In this document: in pieces, positions 6,819 through 63,926 of the stretch | Numbering within the stretch: position 1 is the first letter of the stretch | Layout: the number at the start of each line of letters is the position of its first letter | Made by a program: the position numbers and the translations under genes | Notes under the pieces: model-generated | Told to the model about the DNA's origin: nothing | The model's input: only the letters and a program-made list of their open reading frames with translations | Database searches by the model: none | From: Saprospiraceae bacterium | GTDB taxonomy: Bacteria > Bacteroidota > Bacteroidia > Chitinophagales > Saprospiraceae | Direction of reading: 5' to 3' | Length of the DNA stretch: 64,000 nucleotides | NCBI GenBank assembly: GCA_027488855.1 | Contig: JAIYAV010000158.1 | Coordinates: 1 to 64,000 of the forward strand

Positions 6819-6974
6819 AATGATGAATAATTCGAATGACGAATGACGAATGGGGTGGTAGCACCTGAAATTTTTTGGAAACGCAAGATTGGAGTTCCAT
6901 ATGTTTGTAGTCCCCAATAAAAATTAAAGGCAACGCTCCAAATTCGTCATTCGTCATTCGAAAAATTCGTCATT
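6819..6974. repeat. GAATGAC-type palindrome between convergent genes
   Basis: Left arm 6819-6851 and right arm 6942-6974 are inverted copies (about 30 of 33 positions allowing one gap). Both are built from tandem GAATGAC units, for example CGAATGACGAATGACGAAT. The left arm begins five bases after the stop of the BNR gene. The right arm contains the stop codon and the last codons (MTNFSNDE) of the convergent GNAT gene. The 90-nt loop has no obvious gene. Confidence 0.75.
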
Positions 6975-9171: not shown

Positions 9172-9198
9172 GGTGACGAGTGGAACTAATTTCCAATC

Positions 9199-9311
9199 TG
9201 AGGTGATTCTTAGGTGCCTTAGGTTTCTTAGGTGGTGAAAAAGGAAAAAACCTGCGTAGCAGGATATTCTTTCACCACCTAAGAAACCTAAGGCACCAAG
9301 GAATCACCTCA
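9199..9311. repeat. TTAGGTG-type palindrome, copy 1
   Basis: Left arm 9199-9240 and right arm 9270-9311 are inverted repeats, identical at 40 of 42 positions. Each arm is three to four degenerate direct repeats of a TTAGGTG-like unit (TTAGGTGCC, TTAGGTTTC, TTAGGTGGT). The 29-nt loop contains its own small stem CCTGC-GTA-GCAGG. It lies between two convergent genes, 28 bases after the OM barrel stop. Related copies are at 19438-19536 and 62804-62907. Confidence 0.85.
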
Positions 9312-9358
9312 GGAAGGATAAAAATTACCAAAATTCGATATAACTCAATATTTATCCT

Positions 9359-12391: not shown

Positions 12392-14329
12392 ATGATTAAC
12401 ATTACTTTCCCAGATGGTAAGGTTCGGGAGTACGAACCAGGAACAACGGCGCTTGAAGTAGCCCGTTCCATCAGCGAGGGCTTGGCCCAGAAGGTTCTTT
12501 CGGCAAAAGTAAACGGCGAAGTGTGGGATGCCACCCGTCCGATCCCCACCGACGCGACCTTGACGCTACTCACCTGGGATGATAAAGACGGAAAAACCAC
12601 ATTCTGGCACTCCTCTGCCCACCTGATGGCTGAGGCATTGGAAGCACTGTTTCCTGGCATCAAATTTGGTACGGGCCCAGCTACCGAAGGTGGTTTTTAC
12701 TACGATGTTGATCCCGGTAGCAAACCAATCTCGCTGGACGACCTGCCCAAGATCGAAGCAAAGATGCTCGAATTGGCCCGGCAAAAAAATGGCTATATCC
12801 GCAGAGACATTACTCGGGATGAAGCCCTGAAGTTTTTCCAGGAAAAAGGCGACGAGTACAAAATTGAACTGATTGAAAAACGCGGCGCCGACGAAGCCCT
12901 TACGCTGTATACGCAAGGCAACTTCGTGGACCTTTGCCGCGGGCCACATATTCCGGATACCGGATTCATCAAGGCTGTAAAATTGACCAACGTAGCGGGT
13001 GCTTATTGGCAGGGTGATGAGACGCGCCAGCAGTTGCAGCGCATCTACGGGGTTGCTTTCCCCAAACAAAAAGACCTGCAAGAGCACCTCGTGATGCTGG
13101 AAGAAGCCCGCAAACGCGATCACCGCAAGTTGGGGCAGGAACTAGAACTTTTTATGTTTTCCGAGCGCGTAGGGGCGGGTTTGCCCATTTGGCTACCCAA
13201 GGGCAACGCCCTGCGCGACCGTTTGATGAACTTCCTGCGCGTGGAGCAGGAAAAGCGGGGCTACAAACTGGTTACCACTCCCCACATTGGCCGCAAGGAA
13301 TTGTACGTCACTTCCGGGCACTACGCCAAGTATGGCAAGGATAGTTTCCAGCCCATCCATACCCCTAAGGATGGGGAGGAGTTCCTGCTCAAACCGATGA
13401 ACTGCCCGCACCACTGCGAAATTTACGCCCACCGTCCCCACTCTTACCGCGATCTGCCAATGCGCATCGCGGAGTTTGGTACGGTGTATCGCTATGAGCA
13501 GACTGGGGAGTTGCACGGTTTGTCGCGGGTACGTGGCTTTACGCAGGACGACGCCCACATCTTTTGTACCGAAGATCAGGTAAAGGATGAGTTCTTGAAC
13601 GTATTGGACCTGACTCGGACGGTGTTGTACAAAATGGGCTTTAAAGAATTCACGGCTCAAATCTCCTTGCGTGACCCCAATACGCCCGAAAAATACCTCG
13701 GAACGGACGAAAACTGGCGCAACGCAGAAAACGCCATCATCGAAGCAACCCGTGAGGTGGGGCTAAAAACCACCATGGAATTGGGCGAAGCCGCCTTCTA
13801 TGGCCCCAAACTGGACTTTATGGTGCGCGACGCCATTGGTCGCCAATGGCAATTGGGTACCATTCAGGTGGATTACAACTTGCCCGAACGTTTTGAACTG
13901 GAATACGTCGGTGCCGACAACAAAACCCACCGCCCGGTGATGATTCACCGCGCACCTTTTGGGTCGATGGAGCGCTTCATCAGTATTTTGATTGAAAACA
14001 CGGCGGGTAAATTCCCGCTTTGGCTCATGCCCGAGCAGTATGCCTTGTTGCCGATCAGTGATAAATTTGTAGACTACTGCAAAGAGCTTGAAGAAAAACT
14101 GGCCGCCCACGACATCCGGGGTTACATCGATGACCGCAGCGAAACCATCGGTCGCAAAATCCGGGATACCGAATTGAAACGTATACCTTATATGCTCATC
14201 GTTGGGGAGAAAGAAATGGAGGCTGGCGCGGTAGCGGTACGTCGCCAGGGCGAAGGGGATAAGGGCAGTGTGAGCCTGGAGGCCTTTGTGGAGCTCTTCA
14301 AGGAAGCGCTGGCGAAGGAGGAAGAATAA
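12392..14329 (+). CDS. thrS: Threonyl-tRNA synthetase
   Basis: Full-length ThrRS of 645 residues that charges tRNA-Thr in the cytoplasm. In order: TGS domain (1-60, [20 protein letters not shown]), the editing domain with [11 protein letters not shown] and the downstream [10 protein letters not shown] zinc-type motif, the class II catalytic core with motif 2 ([20 protein letters not shown]) and the zinc ligand region [11 protein letters not shown], motif 3 ([12 protein letters not shown]), and the anticodon-binding domain (about 545-640, [12 protein letters not shown]). All family hallmarks are present and length is typical. TATTTTTG at 12352-12359 may be its -7 element; the leader is too short for a T-box. 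The TAA stop abuts a GTTGAA-type palindrome. Confidence 0.97.
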
Positions 14330-14434
14330 GTTGAAGAGTTGAAAAGTAGCTCCCGCAGCGTTTTTGACAATGCGCTCGTCTAAGCCACTGCGGAAGCCAC
14401 TTTTCAACCTTTCATCTCTCCAACTTTTCAACTT
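14329..14434. repeat. GTTGAA-type palindrome after thrS
   Basis: The left arm (14329-14351, AGTTGAAGAGTTGAAAAGTA) starts at the last base of the thrS stop. The right arm (14399-14434) is its complement and is longer, adding a CATCTCTC block typical of the GAGATGAAAG family. The loop shares CCGCAG-3 nt-CTTAGACG (minus strand, 14393-14377) with the palindrome at 1682-1760. Arms are asymmetric, consistent with deletion in the left arm. Confidence 0.65.
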
Positions 14435-16940: not shown

Positions 16941-17090
16941 AGCGACAGGATGGGAAAACGGATGAAACGGATTGAACGGATTAGAACGGACTTTGACTCG
17001 CCTTCGGCTCGTCTTTATCCGCTGCAGGCGGAATAAAAAATCCGTTTCAATCCGTTCAATCCGTTTCATCCGTTTTCCCATCCTGTCGCT
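16941..17090. repeat. ACGGATGAA-type palindrome, copy 1 (50-nt arms)
   Basis: Left arm 16941-16990 and right arm 17041-17090 are inverted repeats matching at 48 of 50 positions. The arms are tandem direct repeats of an ACGGATGAA-like unit (ACGGATGAAACGGATTGAAC). The 50-nt loop contains a second stem built from GACTCGCCTTCGGCTCGTC and a GCCTGC/GCAGGC-like pair. A further, weaker pair of outer arms (around 16880-16925 and 17100-17135, TACCACGACGACG against CGTCGTAGTGGTG) extends the element. A second copy in opposite orientation lies at 63741-63887. The surrounding interval 16803-17225 holds no gene that I can support. Confidence 0.85.
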
Positions 17091-19346: not shown

Positions 19347-19437
19347 TTACTGCATAAACATGAACTATTGCAAAAGCAAAAGGAGAGGGTATCGTGAAGG
19401 AACCTTCTTACTTTTGAGCGCCGAAGGCGCAAAAAAT

Positions 19438-19536
19438 CTAAGGTGTTCTAAGGTGTCTAAGGTGGTTCAATTTATTTTACTGCCCTTCGAGCCTTTCTTT
19501 GTTTTGAACCACCTTAGGCACCTTAGAACACCTTAG
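19438..19536. repeat. TTAGGTG-type palindrome, copy 2
   Basis: Left arm 19438-19470 and right arm 19504-19536 match as an inverted repeat at 32 of 33 positions. The single exception would be a U-G wobble in plus-strand RNA. Arms are tandem CTAAGGTG units (TCTAAGGTGTCTAAGGTGG). It lies 91 bases past the GHL6 stop. The arms are nearly identical to those of the copy at 62804-62907, while the loops differ. Confidence 0.85.
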
Positions 19537-19578
19537 AATGGGATATATCTGGGATAGTCGGTAGCTGAGAATATAGTA

Positions 19579-25728: not shown

Positions 25729-25883
25729 GGACATTTTTGTATTTCAGAAGCGAAGGACATGAATTGCCACGTGCTCTAGCGCGTGGATGGAGATTGTCTT
25801 TTTGATGGACTTTAGTCCTAGCATTAATGTTTAAGCGAGGGCTAAAGCACGTGGCAATTCATGTCCTCCGAGTAAAATGTCCA
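25729..25883. repeat. Palindromic element between the SprB and pnkp genes
   Basis: Inner arms GGACATGAATTGCCACGTGC (from 25755) and its complement (25841-25866) match at 25 of 26 positions. Outer arms TGGACATTT (25729-25737) and AAATGTCCA (25875-25883) extend the element. The core contains another small palindrome, GGACTTTAGTCC. It fills the space between two convergent genes and encodes nothing that I can recognise. Its arms are not tandem repeats, unlike most others in the window. Confidence 0.8.
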
Positions 25884-34645: not shown

Positions 34646-35377
34646 ATGAAAAGGATCTTGTTTTTGACTTTCGGCCTAGTGCTGGCTTTAACGCAGTTTT
34701 CCTGCGATTTCGATTTTGATGACGACTTTGGCCCCTGTATTCGTGGCAATGGCAATACGGTAACTCGAACGCTGAACTTGCCCGACTTTACGGGTGTCGA
34801 CCTCGACATTTCTGCTGAAGTCATCATCACCCAAGGTGACAATTTCAAAGTTACCGTAGAAGGAGAATCGAACATCATCGCTGAACTGAAAACCAACGTA
34901 CGGAATGGGATTTGGGAAATCGACTTCGACCGCTGTGTGCGGGACCATGACGAACTGACCATTTTCATCACCATGCCCCGGATTCGTTCCTTGAGCATCA
35001 GTGGCTCGGGCGTCATCACCAGTACCAACATCATGAATGTGGACGATATCGATTTGAGCATTTCAGGCTCCGGTAAAATCGACGTGGGCATTGATGCCGA
35101 TGATGTCTTCAGCCGGATCAGTGGCTCGGGCAGGATGGTATTGGAAGGTGAGTCCAATAGCATCGAACATACCGGAAGTGGCTCCGGTGATTTATTCGCC
35201 TTCCAGCTAAAAACCCGAGATGCAAATATCCGGTTAAGTGGAAGCGGCGACTCCGAAGTAAATGTAAGCGATAACCTGAATGTTAGAATTTTTGGCTCCG
35301 GCGACGTATACTATCGCGGCAAACCTCAGGTAGAGGTGAGTGTGTCAGGGTCGGGGAAATTGGTGAACGCGAATTGA
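34646..35377 (+). CDS. Head-GIN domain (DUF2807) lipoprotein
   Basis: A 243-residue exported protein with signal peptide and lipobox (LALTQFSC, Cys near residue 20) followed by an acidic run DFDFDDDFG. The rest is a DUF2807/head-GIN beta-helix: FTGVDLDISAEVIITQGDNF, then repeated SGSG turns (SLSISGSGVI, DLSISGSGKI, SRISGSGRM, HTGSGSGDL, RLSGSGDSEV, RIFGSGDVYY, SVSGSGKL). Domains of this type are common on Bacteroidota surfaces and proposed to be adhesin-like; function is not established. The TGA stop is followed within seven bases by a 35-bp perfect palindrome. Confidence 0.85.
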   Translation: MKRILFLTFGLVLALTQFSCDFDFDDDFGPCIRGNGNTVTRTLNLPDFTGVDLDISAEVIITQGDNFKVTVEGESNIIAELKTNVRNGIWEIDFDRCVRDHDELTIFITMPRIRSLSISGSGVITSTNIMNVDDIDLSISGSGKIDVGIDADDVFSRISGSGRMVLEGESNSIEHTGSGSGDLFAFQLKTRDANIRLSGSGDSEVNVSDNLNVRIFGSGDVYYRGKPQVEVSVSGSGKLVNAN

Positions 35378-35383
35378 GCTATC

Positions 35384-35461
35384 AGCTATTAGCAGTGAGC
35401 TATCAGCTATCAGCAAGGGGTAATCACCTTGCTGATAGCTGATAGCTCACTGCTAATAGCT
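35384..35461. repeat. AGCTATCAGC-type perfect palindrome (35-bp arms)
   Basis: Left arm 35384-35418 and right arm 35427-35461 are exact inverted repeats over 35 bp with an 8-nt loop. Each arm is itself tandem: AGCTATTAGC, AGTGAGCTATCAGC, TATCAGC. A further partial unit (AGCTATC, 35378-35384) precedes the left arm. The right arm contains two bases of the TAG stop (35462-35460) of the convergent MBL gene. No T-tract follows on either side. Confidence 0.9.
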
Positions 35462-36914
35462 ATATCGCATTCGCATTCGCCTCATCGATCACCTCTTGCG
35501 GAATACTGGTTGGGCAGGCGAAATCGGTTTTGGCAATGTTTGCTTCAGCTTCGATGGCTTTCCAGCCACCTTTGATGTCGATTAAGTTTTCAAAACCACG
35601 CGCACGCAGGATGGAGGCAAAAACCATCGAGCGGTAACCCCCGCCGCAATGCAGGTAATAAGTGTGCTGCGGATTCAGTTTGTGCATGTTGTTGTTGACG
35701 TAATCCAGCGGAATGTTTTCAGCAACCAGCGCGTGTTGGGAGATGAATTCCGTTGGTTTGCGTACATCCAACAAGTGTTCAACCTGATCCGCTTCCATTC
35801 GTTTGGCTAATTCAGCCGCATCGATGGATTCGATCGTATCCAATTCTTTACCCGCAGCTTTCCAGGCTTCGATGCCACCTTTGAGGTAGCCCAAAGTATT
35901 GTCGTAACCTACCCGAGCCAAGCGGGTAACCACCTCTTCTTCCCGGCCTTCAGGAGTGATTAGCACAATCGCTTGCTTCAAATCGGGGATTAGCGCACCG
36001 ACCCAAGGAGCAAAACTGCCATCAATGCCGATAAAAATGGAATTGGGAACAAAGCCGTCTTTGAATTCCTGCTCATTGCGTACATCCAGTACCAAGGCAC
36101 CTTCGGCTTCAACCACCATTTCCAGTTCATCTGGGCTGAACGGGGTAGCGCCACGTTCCAACACCTCGTCGATGCTATCGTAGCCCGACTTGTTCATTTT
36201 GGCATTTTTGGCAAAATATTGTGGTGGAGGCGTCAAACCTGCGGTGACTTCACGAATGAATTCGGCCTTGCTCATATCCGCCCGCAAAGCGTAGTTGTTT
36301 TGCTTTTGGCGGCCCAGGGTGTCCCAGGTTTCTTTGCTCATGTTTTTGCCGCAAGCCGAACCAGCCCCGTGTCCGGGGTAAACGATCACCTCATCGGAAA
36401 GGGTCATGATTTTTTCCCGCAAACTATCGTACAACCAACCGGCCAGGTCTTCCTGCGTCACTTCACCAGATTTTTGCGCCAGATCGGGGCGACCTACATC
36501 ACCGATGAACAAAGTGTCTCCCGTAAAGATGGCAAAATCTTCGCCATCCTCATCCTTCAACAAATAAGTGGTGCTCTCAGGCGTATGGCCAGGGGTGTGC
36601 AGTACCTTGAAACTTACGTTGCCCAATTGCAGCACTTCACCATCTTTGGCTTGGTGAATGTCGAAACTTGTATGGGCAGTAGGGCCGAATACAATGGTTG
36701 CGCCGGTTTTTTCGGCCAGGTCAATGTGTCCCGAAACGAAGTCGGCGTGGAAATGCGTTTCAAAGATGTATTTGAGCTTGCTGCCGTTTTCAGCCAATTT
36801 TTCGAGGTAAGGTTGGGTTTCCCGCAGTGGATCAATGATGACTGCTTCGCCCTCACTTTCGATATAATACGCTGCTTCGGCCAGGCAACCTGTATAGATT
36901 TGCTCTACTTTCAT
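35460..36914 (-). CDS. MBL-fold hydrolase with two rhodanese domains (persulfide dioxygenase-like)
   Basis: A 484-residue cytoplasmic protein. Residues 1-235 are a metallo-beta-lactamase domain with the ETHE1/persulfide dioxygenase motif H54-x-H56-x-D58-x4-H63 (THFHADFVSGH), then HTPGHTPEST and DTLFIGDVGRPDL and VYPGHGAGSACG. Two rhodanese-like domains follow, at about 255-355 (EGALVLDVRNEQEFKDGFVP) and 370-475 (EHLLDVRKPTEF, YYLHCGGGYRSM). In the second, the position of the active-site Cys is occupied in HCGGGYRS; the first lacks a clear Cys. Such fusions act on glutathione or low-molecular-weight persulfides in sulfide detoxification. TATTTTTG (minus, 36946-36939) is a likely promoter element. 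The stop codon lies in a palindrome arm. Confidence 0.85.
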   Translation of the reverse strand: MKVEQIYTGCLAEAAYYIESEGEAVIIDPLRETQPYLEKLAENGSKLKYIFETHFHADFVSGHIDLAEKTGATIVFGPTAHTSFDIHQAKDGEVLQLGNVSFKVLHTPGHTPESTTYLLKDEDGEDFAIFTGDTLFIGDVGRPDLAQKSGEVTQEDLAGWLYDSLREKIMTLSDEVIVYPGHGAGSACGKNMSKETWDTLGRQKQNNYALRADMSKAEFIREVTAGLTPPPQYFAKNAKMNKSGYDSIDEVLERGATPFSPDELEMVVEAEGALVLDVRNEQEFKDGFVPNSIFIGIDGSFAPWVGALIPDLKQAIVLITPEGREEEVVTRLARVGYDNTLGYLKGGIEAWKAAGKELDTIESIDAAELAKRMEADQVEHLLDVRKPTEFISQHALVAENIPLDYVNNNMHKLNPQHTYYLHCGGGYRSMVFASILRARGFENLIDIKGGWKAIEAEANIAKTDFACPTSIPQEVIDEANANAI

Positions 36915-40728: not shown

Positions 40729-41038
40729 GGTAAGTGTTCCGGTGCTCTGCACCTTGGAAATCGTACTTTGGTCCACGGGCTATCGACGTTTCGCGGCTAA
40801 TGCCGCTGGTCAGAGGCTCGAAGCTGGTTAACTTGATTTGGAGCTGGGTGAGGGTGAATTTCAATTTTTGAAACTGCTGATTGGATTGTTGCACGGATCA
40901 ACGTGAGGTAAAGTTGGGGCGATGAAATGGGGCCACGGTAATTATCCAGGCTGAACGGACCAGCGGCGCTAGCCGCGCAACGTCGATAGCAGTTCGGCAG
41001 CGGTAGATGTTTGGAGGTGCAGAGCACCGGAACTTATT
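40729..41038. repeat. Nested palindromic element, about 310 bp
   Basis: Outer arms: GTTCCGGTGCTCTGCACC (40736-40753) and GGTGCAGAGCACCGGAAC (41016-41033) are exact complements. Inner arms 40779-40811 and 40958-40990 (GCTATCGACGTT... and its complement) match at 30 of 33 positions and each contains a smaller stem GCGGCTA/TGCCGC. The 146-nt core carries no convincing frame. The element fills the whole gap between two convergent genes, and the PIN gene stop codon (TAA, 41036-41034) touches the outer arm. It looks like a structured non-coding repeat or non-autonomous element. Confidence 0.8.
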
Positions 41039-54651: not shown

Positions 54652-54758
54652 TTTATACTGGATGCCACCAAGTTTTGTGCGTTGGGTTATGGTAACTCTT
54701 TTAGGAGGCTGGGCGGTGGTTATAGGCATGCACAAAACTTGGCGGTGTACAGTATAAA
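54652..54758. repeat. CAAGTTTTGTG-type palindrome, copy 1
   Basis: Left arm 54652-54680 and right arm 54730-54758 pair with about five mismatches in 29. Both contain CCAAGTTTTGTGC or its complement and end in TTTATACTG/CAGTATAAA. It lies between the HExxH gene and the frameshifted lipoprotein gene. The same core recurs at 55692-55784 on the other side of that gene. Confidence 0.75.
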
Positions 54759-55691: not shown

Positions 55692-55784
55692 GTGTATTAC
55701 CAAGTTTTGTGTACAGATTAACCTTTGTTTTTTAATCCCCAACAATTTGTATGAAAAGGCTGCACACAAAACTTGGCGATACAT
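55692..55784. repeat. CAAGTTTTGTG-type palindrome, copy 2
   Basis: Left arm 55692-55716 and right arm 55760-55784 pair with about four mismatches in 25 and share the CCAAGTTTTGTG core with copy 1. It lies between the frameshifted lipoprotein gene and the convergent metY gene, ending eight bases before the metY stop. Confidence 0.75.
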
Positions 55785-60828: not shown

Positions 60829-61788
60829 ATGAAAAAGAATTGGAAAATCACCTTACAACTGTTGTTGCTTGTTTGCGCCCTGTTCAACTTCAATGCCTGT
60901 GGCAGCGAAGAACTGGTCGATCCCGGTGGCAATGAAATGACGGTCCAAAAACGCATCGATCATACCCTGAACGTGGAGGGCAAAAACCGTGAATTCATCG
61001 TGTTTCAGCCCGCTGGGATTCAAGCAATTTCCCCCGTTCCTGTGGTATTTATGTTGCACGGCACTTCTGGGGATGGAGAAAAGTTTTACAACATCTCCGG
61101 CTGGAAAGAGAAAGCCACAAAAGAGAAATTTTTCGCCATTTTTCCGTCTTCGCTAGCGTATTGCATCACCGAAGATGGGGTGAAATCTACAACTACCAAG
61201 TGGAACCATTTCGACCTTGATTCCATTGCTTGTCCTGGCCAAAAACTGTACGATGATGTGAAATTTTTCCGGGAGATGTTGAAGTTTTTACAAACGAAAT
61301 ACCCCATTGATCCCAAGCGGGTGTATGTGAGTGGTTTTTCCAACGGTGGGCAGTTTGCTTTTCGCCTGGCGGTAGAAGCTTCTGATGTGATTGCGGCAGT
61401 AGCACCCTTCGGGACCATTTTTACCAATCAAAACAAGGTGCCGCTGTCACTCATCCCGATCTACCACGGTTTTGGAAACCTGGACGACCGTTTTTTTCCC
61501 TTGAACAACGGCCAACCATTGCCCATGGGGGCGCCACTCATGAACCTTGGAGGGATGAAATTGTCCACTGGCACAATCTGTAATACTTTTGGTTTGACTT
61601 ATGCCAACACCTTAAAAGAAACGGCCAGCTCGGCATTTTGGACTTTTAGCACGCCCACCAAAGGCAATACCAACGTTTACCACGTCCACGAGTTCAAAGA
61701 CTTGACGCATGAATATCCGAATGGAACGAATTACCCGATTGCTGCTACGGAGTTGTTGTGGCCGTTTTTTAGCAAATACAGCAAATGA
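60829..61788 (+). CDS. Alpha/beta-hydrolase esterase lipoprotein (PHB-depolymerase-like)
   Basis: A 319-residue lipoprotein from ATG 60829. Residues 1-23 are the signal with lipobox FNAC (Cys24). The alpha/beta-hydrolase core shows the oxyanion region VVFMLHGTSGDGEKFY, the nucleophile in VYVSGFSNGGQFAFRLA (Ser near 171) and a C-terminal His in VYHVHEFKDLTHEYPNG. The arrangement is that of the polyhydroxybutyrate depolymerase/feruloyl esterase (LpqC-like) family. Substrate not determinable. TAATTTTG at 60788-60795 may be the -7 element. The TGA stop is the first three bases of a palindrome arm. Confidence 0.8.
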   Translation: MKKNWKITLQLLLLVCALFNFNACGSEELVDPGGNEMTVQKRIDHTLNVEGKNREFIVFQPAGIQAISPVPVVFMLHGTSGDGEKFYNISGWKEKATKEKFFAIFPSSLAYCITEDGVKSTTTKWNHFDLDSIACPGQKLYDDVKFFREMLKFLQTKYPIDPKRVYVSGFSNGGQFAFRLAVEASDVIAAVAPFGTIFTNQNKVPLSLIPIYHGFGNLDDRFFPLNNGQPLPMGAPLMNLGGMKLSTGTICNTFGLTYANTLKETASSAFWTFSTPTKGNTNVYHVHEFKDLTHEYPNGTNYPIAATELLWPFFSKYSK

Positions 61789-61862
61789 GAGATGAACGAT
61801 GAGAGATGAAAGCGGTGGAAACAAAATGCTGTACGCTTTCATCTCTCATCTTTCATCTCTCA
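61786..61862. repeat. GAGATGAAAG-type palindrome running from stop codon to stop codon
   Basis: Left arm 61786-61814 and right arm 61834-61862 are inverted repeats with one mismatch in 29. Each is TGA followed by GAGATGAA(A/C)GAT and GAGATGAAAGCG, that is, tandem GAGATGAA units. The first three bases of the left arm are the stop codon of the esterase gene and the last three bases of the right arm (TCA) are the stop codon of purU on the other strand. The loop is 19 nt. The element thus occupies the complete space between two convergent coding regions. Confidence 0.9.
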
Positions 61863-62702
61863 GTCAAAAATAATCGTCTTATTCCCCACCACGGCCACCT
61901 TGTCGTTGAAAACCAGTTTGAGCGCGTGAGCCAGTACAATTTTCTCCACGTCGCGGCCACTTTGCATCATGTCTTGTACGGAGTAGGTGTGATCCACGGG
62001 AATGACGTTTTGCATCAGGATGGGGCCTTCGTCCAGGTCATTGTTGACAAAATGGGCGGTGGCGCCAATGATTTTTACGCCGCGCTCGTAGGCTTGGCGG
62101 TAGGGGTTGGCTCCGATAAAGGCGGGCAAAAAGGAGTGGTGGATGTTGATGATGCGGTTGGGAAAATTCCGCACAAACTCCGGGGATAAAATGCGCATAT
62201 ACTTGGCCAAAACCAGGTACTCCGGGTTGTAGCGCTGCACCACTTCCAGGACTTCCTGCTCATGTTGTTCGCGGCTTTTGCCTTCGTGTGAGACGAGATG
62301 AAAATTGACGCCGAATTGATGCGTAAAAGGTTTCAGGGTATCGTGATTGCCAATGACCGCTAGGATATTGGCATTGAGCTCATTGAACTGGTGCCGCACC
62401 AACAATTCCCCCAAACAGTGTTGCTCTTTGGTGACCAGCAGAACGATGTTTTTGGCGCGTTTTTGCCGCAGGCTGATGCTGGCGTCGGCGGGCAGTACTT
62501 TGCGCAATTCCTCCAGGATGTGGGCGTCGTTGATTTTTCCCGAAAAATCGGTGCGCATGAAGAAGCGGTCTTGCTCGCGCTCCACAAATTCCTGGTTGCC
62601 GATGATGTTCACATTCTGGCTGTACAAAACGCTGGTGATTTTGTAAACGAGGCCCTTTTGGTCGGCACAGTCGATGAGGAGTACGTAGGCGGCTTGGCTC
62701 AT
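61860..62702 (-). CDS. purU: Formyltetrahydrofolate deformylase
   Basis: A 280-residue enzyme releasing formate from 10-formyl-THF. An N-terminal ACT domain (about 1-80: YVLLIDCADQKGLVYKITSV) is followed by the formyltransferase-like domain: KNIVLLVTKEQHCLGELLVR, ANILAVIGNHDTL, LAKYMRILSPEFVRNFPNRI, NIHHSFLPAFIGANPYRQAY, GVKIIGATAHFVNNDLDEGP. The catalytic Asn/His/Asp set of the family is present in NIHHSFLP and DLDEGPI. TATCTTTG (minus, 62730-62723) is its likely promoter element. Stop codon is part of a palindrome. Confidence 0.95.
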   Translation of the reverse strand: MSQAAYVLLIDCADQKGLVYKITSVLYSQNVNIIGNQEFVEREQDRFFMRTDFSGKINDAHILEELRKVLPADASISLRQKRAKNIVLLVTKEQHCLGELLVRHQFNELNANILAVIGNHDTLKPFTHQFGVNFHLVSHEGKSREQHEQEVLEVVQRYNPEYLVLAKYMRILSPEFVRNFPNRIINIHHSFLPAFIGANPYRQAYERGVKIIGATAHFVNNDLDEGPILMQNVIPVDHTYSVQDMMQSGRDVEKIVLAHALKLVFNDKVAVVGNKTIIFD

Positions 62703-62757: not shown

Positions 62758-62803
62758 ATCTTTTAAACATCCCTAAGCATCGAAAACCTTAGAAGCAAAA
62801 CTT

Positions 62804-62907
62804 CTTAGGTGCTCTTAGGTGTCTAAGGTGGTTCAAAATAAACAAAGTATAATTCTGAAAGCGACTTATTTGAATTGAACCACCTTAGGCACCTTAGAAC
62901 ACCTAAG
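62804..62907. repeat. TTAGGTG-type palindrome, copy 3
   Basis: Left arm 62804-62836 and right arm 62875-62907 pair with three mismatches in 33. The arms are almost the same sequence as at 19438-19536, including the same single T-G wobble position, but the loop is unrelated. It lies between purU and the end of the PepSY gene, 47 bases past the PepSY stop. Confidence 0.85.
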
Positions 62908-62953
62908 CAGCCATATGCTTATGATAATCAAGACATATAAGGACTAACGAACC

Positions 62954-63740: not shown

Positions 63741-63926
63741 AAAGCGACAGGATAGAAAAACGGATGAAACGGACTGAACGGATGAAAACGGATTTTTTTC
63801 CGCCTGCGGCGGATAGAGACGAGCCGCAGGCGAGTCAAAGTCCGTTCCAATCCGTTTAGTCCGTTTCATCCGTTTTACCATCCTCACTATTCAACCAAAG
63901 CGAAAGGATAGCAAAACGGAAGAAAC
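63741..63926. repeat. ACGGATGAA-type palindrome, copy 2, with a third partial arm
   Basis: Left arm 63741-63792 and right arm 63841-63887 are inverted repeats of ACGGATGAA-like units with several mismatches. The loop (TCCGCCTGCGGCGGATAGAG onward) equals the loop of copy 1 (16991-17040) read on the other strand with few changes, so the two copies are inserted in opposite orientation. From 63890 a partial copy of the left arm recurs (CAACCAAAGCGAAAGGATAG against CAACCAAAGCGACAGGATAG at 63738). The interval 63680-63971 contains no supported gene. Confidence 0.8.

Follow-up and report, generated by a model that had tools for sequence, protein, structure and literature searches.

STRR heptamer repeats of cyanobacteria are dispersed direct arrays of tandem heptamers with no known origin. 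In the intervening sequences (IVSs) of 23S rRNA, inverted repeats bound an open reading frame for the S23p/IVP protein, and heptameric repeats that vary in number are reported upstream of it in Coxiella (PMC4990558). The same source describes the protein as having no known function, and cites an earlier proposal that the IVS ORF served mobility (PMC4990558). TAACTGA heptamers are present in Beggiatoaceae, cyanobacteria and some Bacteroidetes, with a role in gene rearrangement suggested for some of them (PMC4679880). No literature linking IVP or GxxExxY proteins to dispersed stop-codon palindromes or heptamer repeats was found among open-licence full texts; in the portion of PMC8700078 concerned, four helix bundle proteins are mentioned without repeats.

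Inverted repeats, an S23 ORF and heptameric repeats are combined in the IVP elements described here as they are in the rRNA IVSs, but IVSs are inserted in rRNA helices, from which RNase III excises them (PMC4990558), whereas the present elements abut the stop codons of protein genes; the S23 ORF is also missing from the copy under study and present at another locus (L315) with the same arms. REP/RAYT systems, REPtrons and TIRtrons are likewise short dispersed palindromes 3′ of genes, with copies that carry a cognate protein gene between the repeats (PMC3733652), but here an IVP takes the place of the Y1 transposase, the arms are tandem heptads and contact with the stop is tight. TAACTGA repeats share the intergenic location and the stop triplets within heptamers, but are direct rather than inverted and in Maribeggiatoa lie mostly just upstream of start codons (PMC4679880).

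The window, a 64,000-nt stretch of a Saprospiraceae genome (G000, 8.37 Mb), was compared with the genomes of four congeners (G001 to G004), of which all but G002 are, like G000, draft assemblies; individual loci are given L-numbers. The original prediction of a palindrome running exactly from the stop codon of an esterase gene to that of the convergent purU gene was confirmed (Table 1). The 29-nt arms, which are 97% complementary, enclose a 19-nt loop; each gene has an outer TGA triplet as its stop codon (61786-61788 for the esterase and the complement of 61860-61862 for purU), and no base separates the element from either reading frame. The arms are the heptad array TGAGAGA TGAACGA TGAGAGA TGAAAG, in which TGA recurs every 7 nt so that all three frames are closed within 17 nt from either side. 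With up to 2 mismatches, the heptad motif has 4 matches in the window, all at this hairpin, where 0.01 would be expected. Folded as RNA, the hairpin reaches -46.7 kcal/mol on one strand and -46.5 kcal/mol on the other (z -8.60 and -8.75), and none of 200 shuffles equalled the -46.7 kcal/mol fold. The hairpin is therefore more than chance would produce. It sits between protein genes outside any rRNA gene, no S23/IVP ORF is present in the 19-nt loop, and no target site duplication was seen by eye at this copy.

Table 1. Positions of the stop-to-stop hairpin, its flanking genes and the other palindromes of the window (class B: arms tens of bases past a stop).
Feature	Position	Strand	Remarks
Esterase/dienelactone-hydrolase-like gene	60829..61788	+	Ends in left arm; longest ORF from 60793
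Left arm	61786..61814	+	Four TGARRGA-type heptads; first TGA is the esterase stop
Loop, 19 nt	61815..61833		Without the CTACCGCAG..CTGCGGTAG core present in 26/39 family members
Right arm	61834..61862	-	Same TGARRGA-type heptads inverted; outer TGA is the purU stop
purU (ACT + formyl transferase)	61860..62702	-	3′ end in right arm
Second stop-to-stop case, AGCTATC heptads	35375..35462		+ gene ends 35377, - gene ends 35460; main arms 35384-35418/35427-35461
GAATGACGA-heptad palindrome	6819..6974		Between convergent predicted genes ending 6814 (+) and 6947 (-)
AAGTTGAA-octad palindrome	14329..14417		78% complementary; CCGCAG core variant; adjoins + gene ending 14329
TTAGGTG-type palindrome, class B	9198..9312		27 and 47 nt from two gene ends
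TAAGGTG-type palindrome, class B	19437..19537		Between convergent genes
TTAGGTG-type palindrome, class B	62801..62910		Between purU start and gene ending 62954 (-)
CGGATT-type palindrome, class B	16941..17090		
CGGATT-type palindrome, class B	63749..63884		

The TGARRGA heptads belong to a dispersed family. The 15-mer GATGAGAGATGAAAG occurs exactly 71 times in the 8.37-Mb genome (reversed control, 0), and the 20-mer TGARRGATGARRGATGARRG occurs 190 times; of the 30 genomes searched, the four congeners have 9, 8, 0 and 1 matches and the remaining 25 have none. The 38 stretches listed around 20-mer matches, together with the window, contain at least 43 motif clusters, and exclusion of 4 clusters shorter than 50 nt left 39 elements; the counts that follow are among the matches listed. 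A stop codon lies within 25 nt of an arm in 37 of the 39, part of this nearness being built in because a reading frame that enters a TGARRGA arm has to stop inside it; negative arm-to-stop distances are bounded by construction and positive ones are unbounded, and gene ends were taken from a codon-usage ORF caller built for this work, not from annotation. At L053:3039, one of the two exceptions, the left boundary is misplaced and the arm starts a few bases past the end of the upstream gene at 2930. Where the flanking genes are convergent, both stops are at the arms in 11 of 13 elements; only one of the 39 lies between divergent genes, and 4 have no gene on one side, at a contig end. Abutment of stops is the rule in this family.

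The interior and the arms of the family members vary. A core hairpin of approximately 50 nt, CTACCGCAG..CTGCGGTAG, separates the arms in 26 of the 39 elements and is absent from the window copy and 12 others (among the matches listed). It is not tied to TGARRGA arms, the forward pattern occurring 57, 41, 19, 0 and 60 times in G000 to G004, respectively. Covariation among 22 distinct 49-nt cores was not positive in the register used. Unit variants agree between the two arms of an element no better than after shuffling (0.507 versus 0.502; 36 elements, 134 unit pairs), and hence the near-perfect arms in the window are partly luck and exact pairing is not kept. The arms of one element can be unequal in length (L031-L068; L051, for instance, has 5 units in one arm and 12 in the other), and stretches of a single unit variant are frequent, as slippage would produce. 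Many ends, on the start side as well as the stop side, have the sequence TARAGATGA and could hold a TA duplication. As in MITEs, inverted-repeat copies without coding sequence are dispersed alongside a coding form of the element, which is described below, and as in STRRs there are dispersed tandem heptamers.

Orthologues indicate that the stop positions of both genes predate the window element. The esterase ends at the same final codon in G000, G001 and G002, with TGA each time, followed by a palindrome of different heptads (TGARRGA, TGAAAAG and TGAAAAG/CGAATAG, respectively); the upstream side is common to the three and the downstream neighbour is different in all of them over the 0.7-1.5 kb compared. 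Likewise, purU ends at the same codon (..FD-stop) in G000 (TGA) and G002 (TAA), where a class B palindrome follows approximately 16 nt on, and in other Saprospiraceae, with TAG in L205 (G003), TAA in L206, L210 and L211, and TGA in L215. The TGARRGA element was found after purU in none of G002, L205, L206, L210, L211 and L215. In L207, L208 and L209 the purU stop is directly followed by GTTATTG-type repeats that form a palindrome, the gapless arm in L209 beginning 18 nt past the stop. These palindromes (L207:840-980, L208:3840-3990 and L209:3840-4000) differ in the inner part (GGGGTGGT..), and the GTTATTG repeat pattern has 644 and 1486 matches in two of the three genomes (29 and 138 for the reversed control).

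Similar turnover is seen elsewhere. In the convergent gene pair C212, species differ in what lies between the two stops and the coding sequences can be aligned as far as the final codon, and L065 is another case of family turnover at a fixed stop. Among 58 gene pairs compared between G000 and G002, neither stop has a palindrome nearby in 24, and both have an abutting one in 5. Three G000 genes have a C-terminus altered at the element, two of them with a heptad-encoded tail, ..EMRDER*, where the G002 orthologues end otherwise. The stops thus usually predate the element, which can also supply a stop. The window element has no clean empty site in relatives, where the gap holds other sequence, and neither excision nor transposition nor a target duplication was observed. 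One suggestion of the original prediction, that the element brings its own stops and came to both gene ends by insertion or spread, is largely supported by the dispersed family, the stops in all frames and the three altered C-termini, except that the stop positions at the esterase and purU predate this element. The refuting observation named with it, relatives with the same stops followed by unrelated DNA as a mark of coincidence, agrees in part with what was found (same stop position, other DNA after it), but a family that abuts stops as a rule (37/39 among the matches listed) does not point to coincidence.

A scan for gapless inverted repeats with a score of at least 18 and a span of up to 220 found 67 in G000 (442 kb, in contigs selected for holding a TGARRGA copy), 241 in G002 (1.6 Mb) and 11 in G003 (400 kb), and none in Markov controls. 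Palindromes with tandem-repeat arms belong to many families and have a density of about 15 per 100 kb in both G000 and G002, the arms being mostly near-tandem 7- to 10-mers of many different sequences. The window also contains inverted repeats of other kinds, without clear tandem arms, at 25754-25867, 40779-40990, 54652-54758 and 55693-55783.

Two motif classes were drawn after the data had been inspected, as were the regular expressions, arm-family labels and thresholds (TGAAAAG and TGAAAAA were lumped, as were GTTGAAG and GTTGAGAAG). Class A arms, mainly 7- to 8-mers, adjoin stops, and class B arms, mainly 9- to 10-mers (ACGACG is nearer 8), lie tens of bases past them. The nearest stop is within 10 nt in 13/16 YGAAWAG, 6/6 AGCWATC, 9/11 GAATGACGA, 17/25 GGGTTCG, 22/37 AGTTGAA, 6/9 TGARRGA and 2/2 TGTGCTG palindromes of class A, in 3/26 CAGATT, 1/20 CGGAGT, 2/18 CACAAAG, 0/10 CGGATT, 0/9 ACGACG and 4/23 TTAGGTG palindromes of class B, and in 0/4 core-only and 21/55 unclassified palindromes. 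Uniform placement in the same gap would put 52.6 class A palindromes within this distance (sd 3.3; largest of 2000 runs, 65) and 83 of 105 were found there, compared with 15 of 106 for class B (24.4 expected) and 23 of 58 for the remainder (14.0 expected; largest of the runs, 22). The stop placement of class A therefore goes beyond gap size. In G002, 67 palindromes are in convergent and 21 in divergent gaps, with 185 gene pairs of each kind. GGGTTCG arms include no stop triplet, so that the ability to supply a stop is not common to every family.

A single TGARRGA copy with a gene between its arms was found (G000:C332, locus L063/L315). The product is a 23S_rRNA_IVP (S23)/four helix bundle protein (PF05635, 5.9e-23; TIGR02436). 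PF05635 has 26 matches in the genus, 25 of them over the cut-off, with 8 in G000, 2 in G001, 8 in G002, 5 in G003 and 3 in G004. In a gapless test with a 10-base seed, inverted repeats flank 22 of 24 IVP loci at a score of at least 15 and 19 of 24 at a score of at least 20 (L312 and L322 excluded), compared with 8 and 5 of 417 ordinary genes of 280-700 nt, a control set not purged of IVP and GxxExxY genes. The test detected no repeat at L306 and L317, though the arms of L317 are visible by eye. Judged by eye, the arms at IVP loci are of the class A types TGARRGA, AGCTATC, GTTGAA, TGAAAAG, GAATGACGA and GGGTTCG or other 7- to 10-mers, and none is class B.

Class B arms enclose a different gene. 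A long-repeat scan found the gene for a GxxExxY protein (TIGR04256, PF13366) between CGGATT arms, and 14 of 19 GxxExxY loci in the genus have flanking repeats with a score of at least 15, compared with the 8 of 417 ordinary genes given above, the 19 being those kept of 30 among the matches listed after weak or partial matches were excluded. Ten loci have clear class B arms by eye (L323-L325, L328, L329, L332, L333, L335, L336 and L343). On plasmids, GxxExxY loci gave clear arms at L366 (score 16), weak ones at L365 (11) and none at L367.

The association of IVP genes with arms extends to other phyla. A search of plasmids with the L315 protein matched 24 records, and all 12 loci examined, from Cyanobacteriota, Spirochaetota, Chloroflexota and Bacteroidota, have flanking inverted repeats with scores of 14 to 41 (8-base seed); with the same seed, a score of 14 is reached by none of the 39 further CDS in a stretch of a Nostoc plasmid. 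The arms are tandem by eye in 11 of the 12, the repeats of L363 being not clearly tandem, and the stop of the upstream gene lies inside an arm at 4 of the 12 (L356, L358, L359 and L364). In plasmids of Nostoc and Dolichospermum, the IVP genes are flanked by (GTAATTC)n. These heptamers, which may be STRRs, resemble the present elements as dispersed tandem heptamers, and the difference is that an inverted pair encloses an IVP gene here, where STRRs are direct arrays. The inverted (GTAATTC)n pair around an IVP gene is an addition of this work. The genomes of L207, L208 and L209 contain 7, 10 and 5 PF05635 matches, and no arm was found within 900 nt of the IVP genes G031:C1 and G030:C30 among the matches listed, leaving a prediction of GTTATTG arms unsupported at these two genes. 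IVP might be related to Avd, a protein of diversity-generating retroelements, but the IVP profile matched only 2RLD and 2GSC in PDB at E<=0.01, which does not support such a relation.

An IVP gene with heptad arms lies between cas2 and cas1 in an Anabaena plasmid (L357:1201-1548) and a Nostoc plasmid (L360:1201-1557), the right arm in the latter being within annotated cas1, close to its 3′ end. The IVP elements of L356, L359 and L364 are preceded by helicase genes and have DNA-methyltransferase genes after or near them (drmD and pglX, respectively, in L356), in DISARM/BREX-like surroundings.

IVP lineage and arm family go together. Among 35 IVPs with arms named by eye (L306, L312 and L322 left out), the nearest-relative IVP has the same arm family in all 20 with a recurring family, compared with a mean of 0.97 and a largest value of 8 in 5000 shuffles of arm family. 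Five of the 8 groups of IVPs with the same family include pairs at loci without flanking homology (E 1e-6); in the others, the AGCTATC and AAAGTAA groups are the same locus and one flank is common in GAATGAC. Two predictions made beforehand held. GGGTTCG arrays are confined to G002 (622; 0 in the four others), the genome with an IVP so armed (L311), and GGTTAATGG arrays to G003 (195; 0 in the four others), the genome with IVPs L299, L303 and L308, although this match is partly circular because an absent family cannot supply arms to an IVP. The informative half is that the abundant families GGGTTCG and GGTTAATGG do have an IVP. Co-clustering at non-homologous loci thus indicates that the IVP gene and its arms travel together as a unit.

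The window palindrome is probably a gene-less copy of a small, dispersed, stop-abutting mobile element of IVP type, the full form of which has an IVP gene between arms of its own family. It could be argued instead that a host or trans process of another kind spreads the palindromes, and that IVP and GxxExxY genes are cargo with a tendency to lodge between arms. IVP has no known catalytic or enzymatic activity, and G000 has 190 copies of the family 20-mer yet one IVP gene found with TGARRGA arms, both of which would suit a passenger; the 20/20 agreement between IVP lineage and arm family, which includes loci without flanking homology and two cyanobacterial genera, and the scarcity of IVP genes without arms (2/24 in the genus and 0/12 on plasmids) speak against it, and such an account is rather unlikely. 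Movement of a REP-like element by a RAYT (Y1) transposase would fit dispersed palindromes at gene ends in a genome with 13 Y1_Tnp genes. However, no tandem-armed palindrome from these families lies beside any of the 12 Y1_Tnp loci examined (of 38 matches listed); the loci show only stray single motifs, and several have other inverted repeats. With no cognate Y1 transposase between TGARRGA-type repeats in these 12 loci, the link to RAYT is unsupported and very improbable. Common hairpins with GGCGATGTTCCA are present at the Y1_Tnp loci L286, L287, L293 and L295 of the genus.

The hairpin might also be a bidirectional terminator, or a stabiliser of mRNA 3′ ends, maintained by selection, with compact spacing accounting for the overlap with the stops. 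The very stable fold on both strands, the placement at 3′ ends with the excess in convergent over divergent gaps, and the replacement of one family by another at a fixed site are all compatible with this, and TTTGCTGT follows the hairpin on the purU transcript. A terminator scan reported none at the element, but allows only loops of 3-8, the 19-nt loop being beyond its reach. On the esterase side, GTCAAAAA follows the hairpin and there is no T-run. The original prediction had offered joint selection on termination and translation stop as an option, and T is mildly enriched outside class A arms (0.35 versus 0.26 genome-wide), but at least 5 T in 8 nt were found at only 17% of 228 class A ends. 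The evidence on termination is weak in both directions, and it may be a secondary role. Families confined to one genome and IVP genes between arms are left unexplained by termination, which is unlikely as the main account. Origin at a single site through slippage or template switching, with an accidental meeting of the stops, is hardly credible. Arms do vary in unit number and contain runs of one unit variant, and slippage probably shapes arm length, but these heptads are present at about 40 loci, 26/39 with the same core and 37/39 abutting stops (among the matches listed), and the dispersed copies refute local origin as a full account.

For the mobile IVP-type element, the following course can be proposed. 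The element consists of two inverted TGARRGA arrays that evolve independently, mostly around the core hairpin of approximately 50 nt and in the window around the 19-nt loop. As its placement and the orthologues show, the family settles at the 3′ ends of genes against the stop, where the stop-rich heptads keep or replace it. The putative full element has a 23S_rRNA_IVP (S23) gene between arms of its own family, L315 being the TGARRGA-armed copy; IVP would help the hairpin to move, and gene-less copies may be mobilised in trans, like REPs or MITEs. Stops may be favoured either because insertion is aimed at them, the TARAGATGA ends looking as if TA were the target, or because only insertions there survive, and selection alone could have placed the copies. 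In the RNA of both transcripts the hairpin would form, with a possible secondary effect on mRNA ends. A wider reading, for and against which we see about equal odds, is that S23/IVP and GxxExxY (PD-(D/E)XK-like) proteins each head a cross-phylum superfamily of hairpin-armed mobile elements. Those with IVP would settle at stops and rRNA loops and those with GxxExxY a few tens of bases further on. The IVP branches would then include the intervening sequences of 23S rRNA and at least part of the heptamer repeats of cyanobacteria, and most tandem-armed palindromes in genomes of this kind would be gene-less offspring.

TGARRGA arms have stops in all frames, and insertion at a stop therefore leaves the protein nearly unchanged; the element's own stops provide a simple reason for such an element to live at the gene ends of a compact genome. 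The DNA between conserved gene ends is replaced fast and gene order changes there, the esterase having three downstream neighbours in three species. If IVP is the element's own protein, the function of IVP and the origin of dispersed heptamers would become testable together.
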